NCBI GenBank assembly: GCA_003635185.1
Contig: PYJA01000044.1
Coordinates: forward strand, 24,680-88,679
From: Candidatus Poribacteria bacterium
Lineage (GTDB): Bacteria > Poribacteria > WGA-4E > WGA-3G
DNA: 64,000 nt
Direction: 5' to 3'
Below the pieces are notes generated by a model. That model ran no database searches and was not told the DNA's origin. It saw nothing but the letters and a program-made list of their open reading frames with translations. Both the position numbers and the translations under genes were made by a program. Shown here piece after piece: positions 43,701-55,219 of this stretch; within the stretch, counting starts at the first letter, position 1; the number at the start of each line of letters is the position of its first letter.

Positions 43701-45134
43701 ATGAAAAGTCTGTGGAGACCGGACTTCGTTAGCAAGTTTGTGTTGACTTTGCTGATATTCGTATCCGTTTGCTCAGTAGTAGCACAGGATACCAAAGCCA
43801 AAAAGGGGACAGAGATGGAAAAAAACAGAATTCAGATTTACAAAGAAAACCCGCGTTACTGGCAGTATAAAGGTGAACCGATTCTCCTAATCGGCGGTTC
43901 AGTTGAAGATAACCTATTTCAAATACCGAATCTCAAAGAGCATCTTGAACTGCTAAAGTCAGTTGGCGGTAACTATGTGCGGTCTACGATGGGGTGGAAT
44001 GATGAAGGCGATATACCACCTTTTAAAAAAGTCGGCGACAAATATGACTTAAATCAATGGAATGAAGAATTTTGGACACGTTTCCGCAACTTCATCACTT
44101 GGACTCATGAGATGGATATTATTGTCCAGATAGAAGTATGGGCAACTTTCACCTATTACCGAGATAATTGGGATGTCAACCCCTACAATCCAAAAAATAA
44201 TAGCAATTACACCGCAGAAGAAACGGGATTACCGACTGTTGTCAAAGACCATCCTGTTGCAACGGGGAATAACTTTTTTTGGTCTGTTCCGAAAGAGCGC
44301 AATCAGCAGAACGTCTTAAAATATCAGGAAATGTTTGTAGATAAACTGCTCTCAGAGACACTTCCTTATGGACATATACTCTACTGTATGGACAATGAGA
44401 CAGCCGTCACGGCTGCATGGGGTGAATATTGGGCAACGTATATCCAGAAAAAAGCAAAGGAAGCAGGCCGTGTCGCCGAAACGACTGAGATGTGGGATCC
44501 GTGGGATTTGTCCGATGAGAAACATAGAGCCACTTTTGACCATCCCGAAACCTATTCGTTTTGTGATATATCACAAAATAATCATCAGAAACGGCAGCGG
44601 CATTGGGATAACGCCCAGAAAATTCGAGCGAACCTCTCACCGATCCGTCCCATCAATAATATTAAGATTTACGGTGCTGATGGTGGGCGATTCGGCAGTA
44701 CGCGAGATGGATTAGAGCGATTTTGGCGAAACATTTTTGGCGGGTTTGCATCAGCGCGGTTCCACCGTCCGGATAGCGGCGTTGGCTTGAGCAAAATCGC
44801 ACAGGCACACCTTAAGAGTATGCGCGCTGTCACAGATGAGATAGACGTTTTTACATGCGAACCACATAACGATCTACTTTCCAACAGAGAAGAAAACGAA
44901 GCATACACCTTTGCAAATCCGGGAAAGGAATATGCAGTCTATTTTCCAAAAGGTGGCTCGGTTGATCTCAATTTAAGTCTTGGCAAAAACGCAGATGCGA
45001 AAACGGTAAAAGTCAGATGGTTGAATATCAACAAAAGCGAATGGAAAAAAGAAGAGGAAATCCCCTTTAGTGATAGCATAACATTAGTCGCAGAGACCGA
45101 AGAGCATTGGGCAGTTTTGGTTCAAGTAAAATAA
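43701..45134 (+). CDS. secreted putative glycosidase-like protein (copy 1)
   Basis: 477 residues with a signal peptide (ending VCSVVAQ). The core resembles TIM-barrel glycosidase-like proteins of the DUF4038 type: RYWQYKGEPILLIGGSVEDN, HLELLKSVGGNYVRSTMGWN, RNFITWTHEMDIIVQIEVWA and ILYCMDNETAVTAAWGEYWA, which offers candidate acid residues. The C-terminal YAVYFPKGGSVDLNLSLGKN block looks like a small beta-sandwich of the collagen-binding/PF12904 type. AGGAGG precedes the ATG. The enzymatic call is from pattern resemblance only. Confidence 0.75.
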   Translation: MKSLWRPDFVSKFVLTLLIFVSVCSVVAQDTKAKKGTEMEKNRIQIYKENPRYWQYKGEPILLIGGSVEDNLFQIPNLKEHLELLKSVGGNYVRSTMGWNDEGDIPPFKKVGDKYDLNQWNEEFWTRFRNFITWTHEMDIIVQIEVWATFTYYRDNWDVNPYNPKNNSNYTAEETGLPTVVKDHPVATGNNFFWSVPKERNQQNVLKYQEMFVDKLLSETLPYGHILYCMDNETAVTAAWGEYWATYIQKKAKEAGRVAETTEMWDPWDLSDEKHRATFDHPETYSFCDISQNNHQKRQRHWDNAQKIRANLSPIRPINNIKIYGADGGRFGSTRDGLERFWRNIFGGFASARFHRPDSGVGLSKIAQAHLKSMRAVTDEIDVFTCEPHNDLLSNREENEAYTFANPGKEYAVYFPKGGSVDLNLSLGKNADAKTVKVRWLNINKSEWKKEEEIPFSDSITLVAETEEHWAVLVQVK

Positions 45135-45162
45135 GATGTATTCATATTTCAGGGGTAACCTT

Positions 45163-46599
45163 ATGAAAAATATGTGGCGACTACACTTAGTTATCAACAA
45201 ATTCGTGTTGGTTTTACTTATATGCATGTTCGTTTGCTCAGCAGTAGCATGGGATACCAAAGCCAAAAAGGATACACAGATGGAAAAAAACAGAATCCAG
45301 ATTTACAAAGAAAATCCGCGTTACTGGCAATATAAAGGCAAACCCGTTCTGCTAATAGGCGGTTCTGTTGATGACAATCTGTTTCAGATACCGAATCTCA
45401 AAGAGCATCTTGAGTTATTGAAGTCTGTCGGAGGAAACTATGTTAGGTCTACGATGGGATGGACTGAGGCAGTCGATGTGCCGCCCTTCAAAAAAGTTGG
45501 TGATCTGTATGACTTAAATCAGTGGAACAATGAATTCTGGACGCGTTTTCGTAACTTCATCACTTGGACACACGAGATGAATATTATCGTCCAGATTGAA
45601 GTGTGGGCAACTTTCAACTATTATAGAGATTACTGGGATGTCAATCCCTTCAATCCAAAAAATAATAGCAATTATACCGCTGAGGAAACAGGATTACCCA
45701 CCGTCGTCAATAGCCATCCAAGCGCAGCGAAAAATAACTTTTTCCGGTCTGTGCCGAAAAAGAATAATCAGGAAATCGTCCTAAAATATCAACAAAAATA
45801 TGTGGATAAACTGCTCTCAGAGACACTTTCTTATGGACACATACTCTACTGTATGGACAATGAGACAGCCGTTACACCTGCGTGGGGTGAATATTGGTCA
45901 ACGTATATCAAAAAACGGGCAGCCGAAGCTGGACGCGGCGTTGAAACAACTGAGAGTTGGAATCCTTGGGAATTGTACCATGAACAACACCGAAATACAA
46001 AAGAGCATCCAGAAATATATTCGTTTTGTGATATATCACAGAATAACATGCAGAAGCAGCAGACACATTGGGACAATGCTCAGAGATATCGGGCAGAACT
46101 TTTACCGATCCGTCCCATGAATAATGTTAAGATTTACGGTGCCGATACTGGGAAATACGGTACGACGCGAAACGGGTTGGAACGGTTCTGGCGAAATATC
46201 TTTGGTGGATTGGCATCAGCACGGTTCCATCGTCCACCTAACGGACTCGGTTTGACCGAAACTGCACAAGCGAGCATCAAGAGTATGCGAATGATAACAG
46301 ACGAGATGGACGTTTTTACATGCGAACCTCACAATGACCTGCTTTCTAACAGAGAAGAAAACGGAGCGTACGCCTTCGCAAATCCCGGAAAGGAATACGC
46401 AGTCTATTTTCCAAAAGGTGGCTCAGTTGATCTCAATTTGAGTATCGGTAAAAACACAGATGCCAAAACGGTAACAATTAAATCGCTAAATATCCGCAAA
46501 AGTGAATGGACTGCGGAACAGGAAACCTCCTTCAGTGATAGCATGGCATTAGTCGTAGAGACCGAAGAGCATTGGGCAGTTTTGATCCAAATAAAATAA
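45163..46599 (+). CDS. secreted putative glycosidase-like protein (copy 2, tandem paralogue)
   Basis: Roughly three quarters of residues match copy 1 along the full length, including RYWQYKGKPVLLIGGSVDDN, NYVRSTMGW, ILYCMDNETAVTPAWGEYWS and the C-terminal YAVYFPKGGSVDLNLS. I start at MKNMWRLHLVINKF (45163) with AGGGG upstream; the track start lies nine codons earlier. It follows copy 1 by about 28 bases and shares its operon. Differences cluster in surface-looking loops, suggesting a different but related substrate. Confidence 0.75.
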   Translation: MKNMWRLHLVINKFVLVLLICMFVCSAVAWDTKAKKDTQMEKNRIQIYKENPRYWQYKGKPVLLIGGSVDDNLFQIPNLKEHLELLKSVGGNYVRSTMGWTEAVDVPPFKKVGDLYDLNQWNNEFWTRFRNFITWTHEMNIIVQIEVWATFNYYRDYWDVNPFNPKNNSNYTAEETGLPTVVNSHPSAAKNNFFRSVPKKNNQEIVLKYQQKYVDKLLSETLSYGHILYCMDNETAVTPAWGEYWSTYIKKRAAEAGRGVETTESWNPWELYHEQHRNTKEHPEIYSFCDISQNNMQKQQTHWDNAQRYRAELLPIRPMNNVKIYGADTGKYGTTRNGLERFWRNIFGGLASARFHRPPNGLGLTETAQASIKSMRMITDEMDVFTCEPHNDLLSNREENGAYAFANPGKEYAVYFPKGGSVDLNLSIGKNTDAKTVTIKSLNIRKSEWTAEQETSFSDSMALVVETEEHWAVLIQIK

Positions 46600-46722: not shown

Positions 46723-47016
46723 ATGCTTAAACGACGGTTAGACCAATTCAAACATGAAAATATCGGAATGTTTGATCTTGCTTCTATCGGGATAACGCTT
46801 GCACTCGCAATTACTATCGGTTATTTCGGAGGCAAGTGGATTGGCGGGAAATTAGGCCACGCAGAAATCGGATCATACATCGGGTTTGTGCTTGGAGTCG
46901 CTGCCGGATTCATGGAGATGTTTCGGTCAATAGCGCGATGGAATAGAAAAATGGAACGCATGGAAAAACAACACCGTGATGAAGCACAACAAGCACAAGA
47001 AGGTGAAGGAGAGTAA
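46723..47016 (+). CDS. atpZ: AtpZ/AtpI-family small membrane protein
   Basis: 97 residues with two hydrophobic helices: ASIGITLALAITIGYFGGKW and IGSYIGFVLGVAAGFMEMFR, joined by IGGKLGHAE. This is the AtpZ pattern of proteins encoded first in atp operons, thought to assist assembly of the c ring or Mg2+/Ca2+ uptake. A charged tail rich in K, E and Q follows. The second half (GYFGGKW through GF) is repeated in the chimeric gene just downstream. Confidence 0.88.
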   Translation: MLKRRLDQFKHENIGMFDLASIGITLALAITIGYFGGKWIGGKLGHAEIGSYIGFVLGVAAGFMEMFRSIARWNRKMERMEKQHRDEAQQAQEGEGE

Positions 47017-47086
47017 CGCCTAAAGTAATGGGGACAGAGGTTTTTTTGCGTCCGTAAATCGTCGTTGTTTGACAAAGGAGCCGCTC

Positions 47087-47746
47087 ATGAAGAGTGCCGT
47101 TTTGGAACCTCAAGACTGGTATATCCGACACGTCTATCTCTTTACAATCGGTCTCACCGTAGCTGTTATCGTGGAAGCAGTGATAACAGGCGAAGCTTCT
47201 ATGCTTTCTTCTACGATTCCGATTTTTCTCATTAGAATTACTATCGGGTTTAGTCTATGCTGGTCTATTGAACTTGCAGTTCGGAGATTTATTTTAACTG
47301 GAAAAACGAAGCAAACAAAGTCCTTGCGGGGTATCATCTTTCTCAGTAGGTATACAATCTCTGGCGGCCTACTCTATTTTCTATTTGCTTCAATTGATAT
47401 CATATTCGCGATCATAAGTTGCATCGCTTATTATTTCGTAAGCGGGGAGAGCAGTAGCAAGTTAGGTGATGCGAAAAGAATAACAGAAGAAAATATGGTC
47501 AACATCGCTTCGGGTTGTCTAATAGTTGTTCTCGCTTTTTGTGTCGGTTATTTCGGGGGTAGGTGGATCGGAAGATATTTCGGCAACGCAGAAATCGGAT
47601 CTTATGTCGGGTTGGCTCTCGGCTTCGTTGCTGCGTTTGTGCTGGGGCATCGAATGCAAAAACAACGGAGTGAAGCTGCGCAACAAGCACAAGACATGAA
47701 AAAGGATAACCTATTGAGACTCAGCAACGATTCTTCGTTACTTTGA
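47087..47746 (+). CDS. in-frame AtpI-AtpZ chimeric membrane protein
   Basis: 219 residues from the ATG at 47087 (AAAGGAG upstream; the track start is six codons earlier). The N-terminal part matches the AtpI protein encoded next (YIRHVYLFTIGLTVAVIV; FSLCWSIELAVRRFILTGKT against MFWSIEFVIRRLIRPGKT). The C-terminal part matches AtpZ encoded before it (CVGYFGGRWIGRYFGNAEIG, SYVGLALGFVAAF, then QAQ-rich tail). The order Z, I/Z, I is what a tandem duplication with breakpoints inside both genes gives. The frame is open throughout, so it may be expressed. Confidence 0.85.
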   Translation: MKSAVLEPQDWYIRHVYLFTIGLTVAVIVEAVITGEASMLSSTIPIFLIRITIGFSLCWSIELAVRRFILTGKTKQTKSLRGIIFLSRYTISGGLLYFLFASIDIIFAIISCIAYYFVSGESSSKLGDAKRITEENMVNIASGCLIVVLAFCVGYFGGRWIGRYFGNAEIGSYVGLALGFVAAFVLGHRMQKQRSEAAQQAQDMKKDNLLRLSNDSSLL

Positions 47747-47762
47747 CAAAGGAGTCACTTAA

Positions 47763-48170
47763 ATGGGGCCCACACTTGAATTTGGTGACCGGTTTATTCG
47801 ACAAGTTTATATCTTAACAATTTGCCTCACCGTTGTAATTGGTGCTGTATTGTTAGGTTTCAAACGTCCCGCACTCCCAAGTTTTCTAATCGGCAGTGCC
47901 ATTGGTCTGAGTATGTTCTGGTCAATCGAATTCGTAATTCGGAGGTTGATTCGTCCGGGAAAGACACAGAAAACAAAGTACTTGCTCGGCTTTATCGCTC
48001 TCGGTAAATATACTGTACTCGGTGTGCTACTCTTTTTCCTGTTTAAAATGGAATGGTTGAATATTTACGCGTTCGGCGGCGGAATTGTTTTAGTTCAAGG
48101 TGCTATCATTATCAAAGCAATCGGGTTGATGATAAATGTTCTTAGAAAAAAAGATCCTGATCAACCATAA
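47763..48170 (+). CDS. atpI: AtpI-like ATP synthase subunit I
   Basis: 135 residues, four hydrophobic helices: FIRQVYILTICLTVVIGAVL, PSFLIGSAIGLSMFWSIEFV, TKYLLGFIALGKYTVLGVLL and ALGG-type final helix (FGGGIVLVQGAIIIKAIGLM). AtpI promotes c-ring assembly. AAGGAGTCA precedes the ATG. A diverged copy of its N-terminal 85 residues forms the front part of the preceding chimera. Confidence 0.85.
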   Translation: MGPTLEFGDRFIRQVYILTICLTVVIGAVLLGFKRPALPSFLIGSAIGLSMFWSIEFVIRRLIRPGKTQKTKYLLGFIALGKYTVLGVLLFFLFKMEWLNIYAFGGGIVLVQGAIIIKAIGLMINVLRKKDPDQP

Positions 48171-48215: not shown

Positions 48216-49046
48216 ATGAAAAAAATATCGTTTATCTGTTTGGTTGTCGGACTCACTTTGATTATTGTAGTAGCTGGGAGTTTCGCAGCCGACAATGGCC
48301 ACCGTAGTTTGCTCTCTCCGATTTCAAAGTTGTTACCGGATAACATCATTCCTGAACCGACTCGGTGGCATCAACCGGATCTAATTCCCAATACATACTT
48401 TGCTGTTGTCGTCTTAACACTGTTTTTTGTCTTCGTCACCCGGAAGTTGAAACGGGTCCCTGAAGGAAAAGGACAAACTCTGTTAGAGGTATTTGTAGGC
48501 GGTATCACGGACTTCTTCGGCGGTATTTTAGGCGACCACGGCAAAAAATATGTCCCATTCGTTGGATCCCTCTTCATCTTCATTCTCTTCCTGAACTTTC
48601 TTGGAATCATTCCGGGGCTTCAACCCCCGACAGCAGATTTGAACACAACGCTTGCCCTCGGCATAACGGCTGTATTAGGTGTTCAAATTATTGCTATTAA
48701 AGAACTTGGGATAGGAGGCTATCTGAGACATTTAGCTGGTGATCCTCCGTTGTTAGGGATTTTGATGTTCCCACTTGAAGTTATAGCGCAGTTATCGCGT
48801 GCGGGTTCACTTGCTGTGCGGCTTTTCGGAAATATTTTTGGTGAAAAATCGGTTGTTATTGAACTCACAGCTCTGGGGATTGTTACCATAGGATCATTTT
48901 TTCTCCCAATACCAGTTCAGATACCAATGCTGTTCTTTGGATTGTTTGCTGGCTTTTTGCAGGCATTCGTTTTTACAATATTAACATCTATCTATATCGT
49001 GCTGTTCATTGAACACGACGAAGAAGCGCATGAAGCGCATCATTAA
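48216..49046 (+). CDS. atpB: F1F0 ATP synthase subunit a
   Basis: 276 residues. The essential arginine is in AGSLAVRLFGNIFGEKSVVI, and the FLNFLGIIPGLQPPTADLNT stretch is diagnostic. The N-terminus MKKISFICLVVGLTLIIVVA then GSFAAD looks like a cleavable signal peptide, as found in some a subunits. The C-terminal helices (LQAFVFTILTSIYIVLFIEH) end in a His-rich tail. No good Shine-Dalgarno precedes the ATG, only A-rich sequence. Confidence 0.97.
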   Translation: MKKISFICLVVGLTLIIVVAGSFAADNGHRSLLSPISKLLPDNIIPEPTRWHQPDLIPNTYFAVVVLTLFFVFVTRKLKRVPEGKGQTLLEVFVGGITDFFGGILGDHGKKYVPFVGSLFIFILFLNFLGIIPGLQPPTADLNTTLALGITAVLGVQIIAIKELGIGGYLRHLAGDPPLLGILMFPLEVIAQLSRAGSLAVRLFGNIFGEKSVVIELTALGIVTIGSFFLPIPVQIPMLFFGLFAGFLQAFVFTILTSIYIVLFIEHDEEAHEAHH

Positions 49047-49099
49047 TTTTCTATGGGTCAAGTGTTAACTTGCCCCTATCCGTCCAAGGAGGACATTTC

Positions 49100-49453
49100 A
49101 TGATTTATTTAGCAGTGTTAGCGTTTGGTGTAACTTTAGGGTTGCCGATCGCTGTTATTTTTGCCTCAACGGCGCAAGGAAAGGCAACAAGTACTGCTCT
49201 TGAAGGTATTGCGCGTCAACCTGAGTCATCTGGAAAAATTCAGACCGCGATGATTATCGGTTTGGCACTCATTGAATCGCTTGTTATTTACGCACTATTA
49301 ATGTTCTTTATTCTGCAAGCAAAACTTCCAGCAGATGAAATGCTGAGAGGAATGATTGATGCCGATGCAGGAAATGCTCCGGTTGAACAGGTGCAGGAAG
49401 ACACCGCTAAAGCTAACGGTGTTGAAATGGAAGATGCAGGCGAAAACGAATAA
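49100..49453 (+). CDS. atpE: F1F0 ATP synthase subunit c, with Na+-type ion-site residues
   Basis: 117 residues from the ATG at 49100 (AAGGAGGA upstream). Helix 1 carries QGKATSTALEGIARQPE, and helix 2 MIIGLALIESLVIYALLMFF. Aligning on ARQPE, the Gln occupies the position of Q32, and ES..Y those of E65, S66 and Y70, of the Na+-binding c subunit of Ilyobacter tartaricus; the spacing is identical in both helices. T67 is replaced by Leu. The protein has an unusual 40-residue acidic C-terminal tail after the second helix (PADEMLRGMIDADAGNAPVE and on), which c subunits normally lack. Confidence 0.95.
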   Translation: MIYLAVLAFGVTLGLPIAVIFASTAQGKATSTALEGIARQPESSGKIQTAMIIGLALIESLVIYALLMFFILQAKLPADEMLRGMIDADAGNAPVEQVQEDTAKANGVEMEDAGENE

Positions 49454-53225: not shown

Positions 53226-54206
53226 ATGGTAAAGACCATTGATGAGAAAGTCAATACCGTTTTAACGCAAAATACTTTCTGGTTTCAGGATAGAGAGTTT
53301 GAGGAAAAGTACGAAGCGAATATTACTGTTCTGAAAGAAACCTTACTTGTGTTGAGAAATGAGATTCAAAATCAAGGTCTGACCAAGAAATTACTTGAAG
53401 ACTTACTTTTGAAAAAAGCAAACGGGTTAAAGGTTTTGCTGACACTCACAGGATTATCCAACGAATCCTTTAAGCGGTTAGTTAGTTTTATTAGGGTCGT
53501 TGATGATGCGGAACTTTCAAAATTCTCTTTTAGAGATCAATGGATAGAAGAATCAGAATTAGAAAGCCTTGATATAAGAGAGTGGTCTGATTCAAAAATC
53601 GAAAGTAAAATTCGGGAGAATGTATATTTTAGAAAAGGTATTGTCAACCTTTTTTATGAAGGTTCAACTATTCCTTTGCTATCTAAAACTCTCCCACTGT
53701 TTGAGTTAAAAAAGTTAAGCTGTTCTAAACTGAAATTTGACATTGAAGCAATGATTGATACTTTGATCCGCTATAAAGAAAAAGGCTCTTATTCGGGCAA
53801 AATGAAAAATAATCCAGAAGTCACTATCGGTAAACTCTTAGACGACATAGAAATTAGTTTTGAGAGCGGCGACCTAAATAAACTGAAAGAACACGCTCCA
53901 ACCGAGAAACGTACAATGGATTTTATCATTCCCAATCAAGAAAATCCCCAAATTATTATTGAGTCATCATATTTGACAACGACTTCTTCAGGCCAAGGCG
54001 ACAAAGCGAAAACTGAGAATCACATTAGACACTTACTTAAAGAACATTACCCTAACGCGCGCTTTTGGGGATTTGTTGACGGTATCGGGTGGTATGTTCG
54101 GAAAAACGATTTGCGAAGAATGGTTGAAGCGTTTGAAGATGTTTTCACTTTGGAAGAATCGGAACTTAAACGTTTCCAACAATCGTTAATTGCCGTTTTA
54201 AAATAA
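53226..54206 (+). CDS. putative type II restriction endonuclease
   Basis: 326 residues with no close match I can name. Position beside a DNA methyltransferase on the same strand, 41 nt apart, identifies it as the likely restriction partner. A possible PD-(D/E)xK core is TMDFIIPNQENPQIIIESSY (D, then E after a strand), followed by GQGDKAKTENHIRHLLKEHY and a last strand RFWGFVDGIGWYV, the order seen in many type II enzymes. AGGA precedes the ATG. The gene appears AT-richer than atpA and atpG. Specificity unknown. Confidence 0.78.
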   Translation: MVKTIDEKVNTVLTQNTFWFQDREFEEKYEANITVLKETLLVLRNEIQNQGLTKKLLEDLLLKKANGLKVLLTLTGLSNESFKRLVSFIRVVDDAELSKFSFRDQWIEESELESLDIREWSDSKIESKIRENVYFRKGIVNLFYEGSTIPLLSKTLPLFELKKLSCSKLKFDIEAMIDTLIRYKEKGSYSGKMKNNPEVTIGKLLDDIEISFESGDLNKLKEHAPTEKRTMDFIIPNQENPQIIIESSYLTTTSSGQGDKAKTENHIRHLLKEHYPNARFWGFVDGIGWYVRKNDLRRMVEAFEDVFTLEESELKRFQQSLIAVLK

Positions 54207-54247
54207 CAGAACGTTAATAATCCCTCATGATTTATTTAAGGTGTACT

Positions 54248-55219
54248 ATGGACAAATTTATCAACAAAATCATTCACGGCGATTGTATAGAGGTTATGCA
54301 GCAAATTCCTTCAGATAGCATTGATGTTACATTTGCTGATCCGCCTTTTAATCTGAAAAAAAATTACGGGAATTACAAGGACGAAAAGAATACAGACGAT
54401 TATCTCAGTTGGTGTAAACAGTGGATCCTTGAAATGATAAGAATAACAAAACCGAGTGGATCCATTTTTCTTCACAATATCCCTAAATGGCTTACCTATT
54501 ATGCTGAGTTTCTAAACGAAGTTGCAGATTTTCGCCATTGGATCGCATGGGACGCGCCAACTGCACCTATGGGCAAAACTTTGCAACCCTCGCACTATGG
54601 CATTTTGTTTTATGCAAAGAATCAACAGGAAAACAAATTTTATGAAATTCGGTATCCACATAAGCGATGTCGCAAATGTGGATACTTGTTAAAAGACTAC
54701 GGTGGAAAAAAGAAAATTCTACACCCTTTTGGACCGCTTGTTTCTGATATATGGTCGGATATTCACCGCATTCGTCATAATAAACATAGAGACCCACATC
54801 CATGCCAACTTCCAGTACATCTTTTAGAACGTATTCTTTTAATGAGCACAGACGAAGGGGATGTCGTTTTAGATCCATTTATGGGGACAGGCACAACCGC
54901 CGTTGCTGCCGCAAGATTGGGAAGGAACGTTATCGGCATAGATATCGATCCTCAATATGTCCAAATTACTAAAAAGAAATTAGCACAGGAATCCCCAAAC
55001 TCTAAAATTGAGGATATTTGGGTAAGTTTTTATCTCGGTGAAATTGTTACAATTGTTGATAAAGATTGGGAACTGTTGAAGTCGTCCTTTGTGATACCAG
55101 AAGATATGAAGTGTATTGACTTCAAAAAAATCAAAACTAATGGCGGAGTCATTACCACGGCACCGCAGACCCGTCAACTTTCTTTAGATCTTAAAGAGGA
55201 AAAATGTGACTGTTATTAA
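54248..55219 (+). CDS. type II DNA methyltransferase (beta-class, N6-adenine or N4-cytosine)
   Basis: 323 residues from the ATG at 54248 (AAGGTG upstream; the track start is seven codons earlier). The catalytic motif TFADPPFNLKKNYG comes first and the SAM motif VLDPFMGTGTTAVAAARLGR later, the beta-class order; DPPF favours adenine-N6. CRKCGYLLKDYGG looks like a small metal-binding insert, although only one CxxC is present. The stop codon at 55217-55219 falls exactly where the right copy of the atpA/atpG duplication begins, so the unit is very compact. Confidence 0.93.
   Translation: MDKFINKIIHGDCIEVMQQIPSDSIDVTFADPPFNLKKNYGNYKDEKNTDDYLSWCKQWILEMIRITKPSGSIFLHNIPKWLTYYAEFLNEVADFRHWIAWDAPTAPMGKTLQPSHYGILFYAKNQQENKFYEIRYPHKRCRKCGYLLKDYGGKKKILHPFGPLVSDIWSDIHRIRHNKHRDPHPCQLPVHLLERILLMSTDEGDVVLDPFMGTGTTAVAAARLGRNVIGIDIDPQYVQITKKKLAQESPNSKIEDIWVSFYLGEIVTIVDKDWELLKSSFVIPEDMKCIDFKKIKTNGGVITTAPQTRQLSLDLKEEKCDCY

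Follow-up and report, generated by a model that had tools for sequence, protein, structure and literature searches.

An in-frame AtpI–AtpZ chimera between its two parent genes in the atp operon of a Candidatus Poribacteria genus

The head of the atp operon in the window (the whole 64,000-nucleotide stretch of Candidatus Poribacteria DNA analysed here) consists of atpZ, a 219-codon chimeric gene, atpI and atpB. The middle gene is an in-frame AtpI–AtpZ chimera produced by head-to-tail duplication. The fusion arose once, in the stem of the genus, and the gene is fast-evolving yet maintained, loosely. Judged from alignments, its parts run in the order AtpI helices 1-3, AtpZ helix 1, AtpZ helices 1-2. 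The features of the locus are as follows.

46723-47016, + strand: atpZ (parent), 97 aa, two helices; PF09527 E 5e-11
47017-47086, + strand: atpZ-chimera spacer, of the ancestral (outgroup) atpZ-atpI type; matches the sister-genus atpZ-atpI spacer, z 5.1
47074-47080, + strand: Shine-Dalgarno sequence of the chimera, AAAGGAG, read from the sequence
47087-47746, + strand: chimeric gene, 219 aa from ATG; AtpI (1-95), AtpZ helix 1, AtpZ (about 10 to the end)
47087-47386, + strand: AtpI-derived part of the chimera, aa 1-100, AtpI helices 1-3; by alignment, and by a profile match to AtpI 1-95 only
47387-47467, + strand: extra copy of AtpZ helix 1, aa 101-127, serving as helix 4; by orthologue alignments, weak in the window genome
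47477-47695, + strand: AtpZ-derived part of the chimera, aa 131-203, helices 5-6; profile match to AtpZ 10-97
47696-47743, + strand: chimera tail, aa 204-219; aligns with the atpZ-atpI spacers of chimera-less members of the genus
47747-47762, + strand: chimera-atpI spacer with the atpI Shine-Dalgarno sequence (AAAGGAG, 47748-47754), read from the sequence
47763-48170, + strand: atpI (parent), 135 aa, four helices; PF03899 E 6e-6
48216-49046: atpB, downstream of atpI
46799-47386, + strand: direct DNA repeat, first copy, from atpZ to the AtpI part of the chimera; by DNA alignment
47526-48044, + strand: direct DNA repeat, second copy, from the AtpZ part of the chimera to atpI; by DNA alignment

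The peptide across the chimera junction is LLYFLFASIDIIF.

Homology and single origin of the chimeric gene

The original prediction, made from the window alone, had placed AtpZ, a 219-residue chimera and AtpI in this order within 46723-48170, and both the order and the coordinates hold. It had also described the front of the chimera as AtpI-like and its back as AtpZ-like, and each half was aligned with its presumed parent. Chimera residues 5-100 matched AtpI 4-94 with 46 identities in 90 positions, and residues 136-203 matched AtpZ with 34 identities in 67. The scores were 194 and 157, where the best among 5000 shuffles reached 65 and 60, so that the C-terminal half is AtpZ-like far above background. 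Crossed comparisons (the front against AtpZ, the back against AtpI) gave scores within the shuffle range. The comparison was repeated at profile level with every AtpI and AtpZ sequence in the family. Against the AtpI profile the homology of the chimera ended at residue 95 of 135 (probability 99.8), and against the AtpZ profile hhalign gave a probability of 99.8 over 78 columns (AtpZ 10-97).

At the DNA level, 46799-47386 and 47526-48044 aligned as a single block (score 261; best of 200 shuffles 47) that spans the intergenic spacer and the Shine-Dalgarno sequence. As this contiguous direct repeat extends across the spacer and the ribosome-binding site, with an intact parent on each side, it represents a true head-to-tail duplication. 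The breakpoints lie inside both genes, as had been proposed; the one in atpI falls near codon 95 of 135, and the one in atpZ near codon 20 of 97. The frame is intact and the gene has its own Shine-Dalgarno sequence, again in agreement with the proposal.

In Pfam searches, PF09527 scored 23.1 bits on the window copy, below its gathering cut-off of 26.6, and matched eight of the ten known copies at E<=0.01 (best 2.6e-6). PF03899 (AtpI) gave no match to the window copy at E<=1, nor to any of the ten at E<=0.01. The GYFxGxWIG motif is kept in nine of the ten copies and reads GHF in the other; nine copies have lost the same 11 residues after the last AtpZ helix; and all ten keep the GxF/GxWxG positions of the AtpZ part together with the W and E of AtpI helix 2.

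Full-length chimeras were found as ten copies in nine of the 16 readable genomes of the genus, and were absent from the rest of the 84 searchable genomes of the phylum. An origin older than the genus was rejected, as none of the 66 phylum genomes outside it contains the gene. The genome to which the window belongs is incomplete (82% complete, 4.57 Mb); the chimera is not an assembly accident, since the independent assemblies of eight other genomes contain it, one of them a single 5.3-Mb contig. The window chimera is 38-64% identical to the other copies, and the window atpZ is 80-97% identical to that of the other genus members that carry the chimera. Among the genus's nine other genomes, seven have atpZ adjoining atpI, and one has a contig that stops at atpB. 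No match to F-type atpA or atpB was found in G016, a member of the genus called 96% complete; this genome may lack the F-type ATP synthase.

In phylogenetic trees, all ten AtpI parts formed one clade (support 100/100), as did nine of the ten AtpZ parts (100/99), and forcing all ten AtpZ parts together was not rejected (AU p 0.56). In G006 the AtpZ part is altered and the 11-residue deletion is absent; an early stop removes the tail, and the shared tail sequence persists behind the stop codon. The AtpI tree placed the chimera outside the genus, and a grouping with the parents of the genus fitted equally well (AU p 0.50). The original prediction had considered that the chimera might turn out to be an ancient separate gene in relatives: it is indeed as old as the genus, but this does not overturn its descent from the atpZ/atpI pair.

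The extra helix and the predicted topology

The approximately 35 residues between the AtpI and AtpZ parts hold one further hydrophobic helix (helix 4). In G004 this helix aligned without gaps to AtpZ 20-45, with 14 of 26 residues identical (54%, z 12; ASIDIIFAIISCIGYFGSAWFSSKLG against ASIGITLALAITIGYFGGKWIGGKLG). The resemblance was also clear in G012 and in copy 1 of G013 (z 8 in both) and in G015 (z 5), and these four clear matches span AtpZ from about 17-20 to 45-48. It was weak in G000, G001 and G009 (z 3-4), and no resemblance to AtpZ was detected in G006, G011 or copy 2 of G013. When the G004 segment was used to search four whole genomes in all six frames, only helix 1 of atpZ and the chimeras matched, the atpZ matches having 52-54% identity and E-values of 8e-4 to 3e-3 per genome. 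As a match to helix 4, AtpZ was ranked together with 319 further frames from the window and came first for four copies. For the window's own copy AtpZ ranked only sixth, and the identity of helix 4 in this genome is therefore taken from its orthology with G004, to which the segment is 78% identical.

Three other sources for the segment were rejected. It is not a diverged AtpI helix 4, as it scored above shuffles against that helix in no copy; the four-helix arrangement of the AtpI family is thus incomplete in the chimera, with AtpI helix 4 absent. The region upstream of atpZ and the AtpI-AtpB border each gave only chance-level DNA matches. The extra copy of AtpZ helix 1 means that a simple single duplication is insufficient and that at least two rearrangements were needed. 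In this respect the original prediction, which derived the present protein from one duplication, fell short.

An AlphaFold2 model of the window copy, based on a 51-row alignment, had a mean pLDDT of 74 and six long helices (9-33, 43-70, 77-99, 103-123, 135-164 and 168-216); a first model from ten rows was too weak (pLDDT 58.6) and was discarded. In those copies where a hydropathy scan separates six helices, the segments predicted to lie inside contain 15-23 Lys and Arg residues, compared with 1-3 outside. In G000, G004 and copy 1 of G013 the scan fuses helices 3 and 4 into one hydrophobic run; AlphaFold2 splits the two in the window copy (77-99 and 103-123). A Foldseek comparison of the model with the PDB returned nothing (best E-value 2.7), and a search of solved structures by sequence returned none for the chimera or AtpZ and chance hits only for AtpI. 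The model and the charge distribution point to a protein of six helices with its N- and C-termini both inside.

This topology suggests a role for the extra helix. From the positive-inside pattern of four-helix AtpI, an AtpI cut after helix 3 would end outside. Joining AtpZ directly to this point would invert the AtpZ hairpin and leave its basic tail outside, and an additional helix would restore parity, with the hairpin in its normal orientation. The extra helix may thus be read as a repair of topology. A more tentative proposal, to which we give slightly less than even odds, is that the fusion was born with a defect (an odd number of preceding helices, inverting AtpZ) and that internal duplication of a helix repaired it, giving a new, selected six-helix Fo accessory protein.

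Selection and candidate function

The rate of protein change was estimated over five independent pairs of chimeras, which gave an omega of 0.64 (p 4e-6 against 1). Single pairs had values of 0.34-0.85. In the same species the omega of each parent was 0.087, and that of the chimera is thus about seven-fold higher. No segment of the chimera had an omega above 1. At dS 0.2-1.6, every one of the ten frames stays open across both domains. Neutral change would predict 5-14 nonsense hits in each of four close pairs; none was found inside the shared domains, and the sole early stop, in G006, removes only the tail. The proposal that the chimera is kept is borne out by the omega value and the open frames. 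The repeated loss of the gene (described below) and its omega of 0.64 together imply that it is dispensable and loosely constrained, and it may do little.

AtpI helps c-ring assembly, and atpZ supports Mg2+ acquisition in alkaliphilic Bacillus (PMC4453477, PMC4154653); atpI- and atpZ-type genes have themselves been argued to be old duplicates (PMC4154653). The back part of the chimera resembles AtpZ (PF09527; atpZ of Bacillus pseudofirmus OF4) in its two helices, its GYFxGxWIG motif, its basic cytoplasmic tail and its position in the atp operon. It differs in being joined behind AtpI helices, in its additional diverged copy of helix 1, in the 11-residue deletion after the last helix and in its roughly seven-fold higher omega. 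The front part resembles the c-ring assembly helper AtpI/UncI (PF03899, ATP-synt_I) in helices 1-3, in the W and E of helix 2 and in the basic loop between helices 2 and 3. It differs in that helix 4 is replaced by an AtpZ helix, and the Pfam model does not recognise it. In-locus duplications of atpI-type genes are likewise found at the head of the atp operon (PMC4154653); those are described as gene copies, whereas the present case, with breakpoints inside both genes, is a fusion beside both intact parents. A search of titles and abstracts for both gene names, with partial coverage of the literature, found no report of an AtpI–AtpZ fusion.

The reading that we favour, with a probability of roughly 0.55, is that the chimera acts at Fo as AtpI and AtpZ joined covalently in one unit, with a variant function that is dispensable. 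This role is suggested by its homology, its operon position and its conserved motifs; it is encoded in the atp operon, just ahead of the a subunit. On this reading atpZ-atpI was duplicated in tandem in the stem lineage of the genus, leaving the fusion gene between its two parents, with AtpI helices 1-3 followed by the extra AtpZ helix 1 and then by the AtpZ hairpin, whose charged tail is cytoplasmic. The product would be a paralogue of the accessory pair in which AtpI helps the c-ring to assemble and AtpZ/AtpI help to supply Mg2+. The essential work would stay with the parents, and the fusion would perform a dispensable, fast-evolving variant of it.

The strongest competitor, which we consider unlikely, holds that the gene is a by-product of a repeat-prone locus, with little or no present function, whose slow decay is hidden by weak constraint and by fresh copies taken in from other species. 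The high omega in every pair, the repeated losses, the truncation in G006 and the run-on frame of copy 2 in G013 would all be expected of such a gene, as would the presence of another tandem duplication next door. Ten open frames at these values of dS, despite the nonsense hits expected in each close pair, speak against it, as do an omega significantly below 1 and the retention of both parents' motifs.

Several other features of the operon were recorded. Directly upstream of atpZ (43701-46599), two neighbouring genes (477 and 487 aa) are tandem copies, 78% identical, and the neighbourhood has thus had another tandem duplication. Between atpA and atpG, within the atp operon (53226-55219), sit a restriction endonuclease of the DpnII type (PF04556, 28.7 bits) and, next to it, a DNA methyltransferase-like gene. 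The c subunit (49070-49453) has a helix 1 without the usual glycine-rich motif, a C-terminal extension that is charged and about 40 residues long, and a Q...E-S-x-x-x-Y pattern that we take to resemble that of Na+-binding c subunits. Its core is nearly identical in chimera-bearing and chimera-less genomes, and a comparison of c-subunit sequence with chimera presence revealed no obvious link.

Spread, exchange and apparent loss within the genus

The chimera is not a local novelty of one genome. It is genus-wide, has been exchanged between species and has apparently been lost several times, leaving a scar. The order atpZ, chimera, atpI, atpB is found in the window and its eight chimera-bearing relatives, with two exceptions. 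G013 has two tandem chimeras (locus L045, 1983-3402) on a contig that ends just after atpI; its copy 2 has lost the usual stop, and the reading continues into the beginning of atpI in a different frame. In G004 a 0.9-kb insertion (locus L037, 2306-3242) separates the chimera from atpI; it contains an open frame whose product is probably exported. In chimera-less G017 (locus L048, 2544-3442), about 0.9 kb lies between atpI and atpB, where the gap in most others is a few tens of bases.

Mapped on an atpA and rpoB tree, the chimera occurs in every main subclade and its distribution requires five changes. The atpZ-chimera spacers match the atpZ-atpI spacers of the sister genus in seven of nine genomes (z 4-13). 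The atpZ-atpI spacers of six of the seven chimera-less genomes match the 3' end of the chimera (z 8-14), and the same six gave z values of -1 to 5 against the outgroup spacer; the spacer of the seventh, G007, matches neither the chimera 3' end nor the sister-genus spacer. Because the 3' end of the chimera sits downstream of atpZ in six of the seven chimera-less relatives, it is strongly suggested that they once carried the gene and that recombination of atpZ with the chimera's AtpZ part removed it. In the favoured reading, this recombination would have deleted the gene in several species.

A different birth can be envisaged, in which unequal crossing-over between an imported atpZ-atpI pair (with the old spacer) and a resident pair (with the new spacer) produced the fusion, and the chimera-less species never had it. 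This is a rival on origin and is compatible with either function. It would account for the two different types of spacer on either side of the chimera (atpZ-chimera and chimera-atpI) and for the strong divergence of the chimera parts from the parents. Yet atpZ sequences from chimera-bearing and chimera-less species are intermixed in the tree, every main subclade has chimeras, and for the closest species their dS is near that of the parents. Such a birth is possible, less likely than loss by recombination, and in our estimate improbable.

Short-linker and long-linker alleles of the chimera cross species borders and do not follow the species tree: the linker allele of G001 is unlike those of its sisters G000 and G004, and that of G015 is unlike that of G012. 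Copy 1 of G013 is closer to the G015 chimera (dS 0.24) than are the flanking parents (0.58 and 1.49). In the AtpI tree, copy 2 of G013 falls with the chimera of G006, a sister species; this grouping is less sure, as both are long branches. The chimera tree thus conflicts with the species tree in places, and vertical descent is not the whole story. A diversifying decoy or immunity-type paralogue, protecting the ATP synthase against some phage or bacteriocin factor, would explain the fast change, the two allele types spread off the species tree, the close G013 and G015 copies and the repeated loss, but it is very unlikely, as no segment has an omega above 1, no phage or toxin partner was seen and exchange between species is common in general.

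The partnership of AtpI and AtpZ, and the role of each, are still poorly settled. Their covalent joining in this fusion supports the view that the two work next to each other. Few loci show so plainly how tandem duplication can give rise to a gene while both parents remain in place, and its scars suggest deletion through the same repeats. In the more tentative proposal above, living species would thus retain successive stages in the birth and death of a gene, from the old spacer through the single and the double fusion to the scars of deletion. These scars call for care in studies of gene presence and absence, since the lack of a gene in a relative may mean that it was lost, and not that it was never present.
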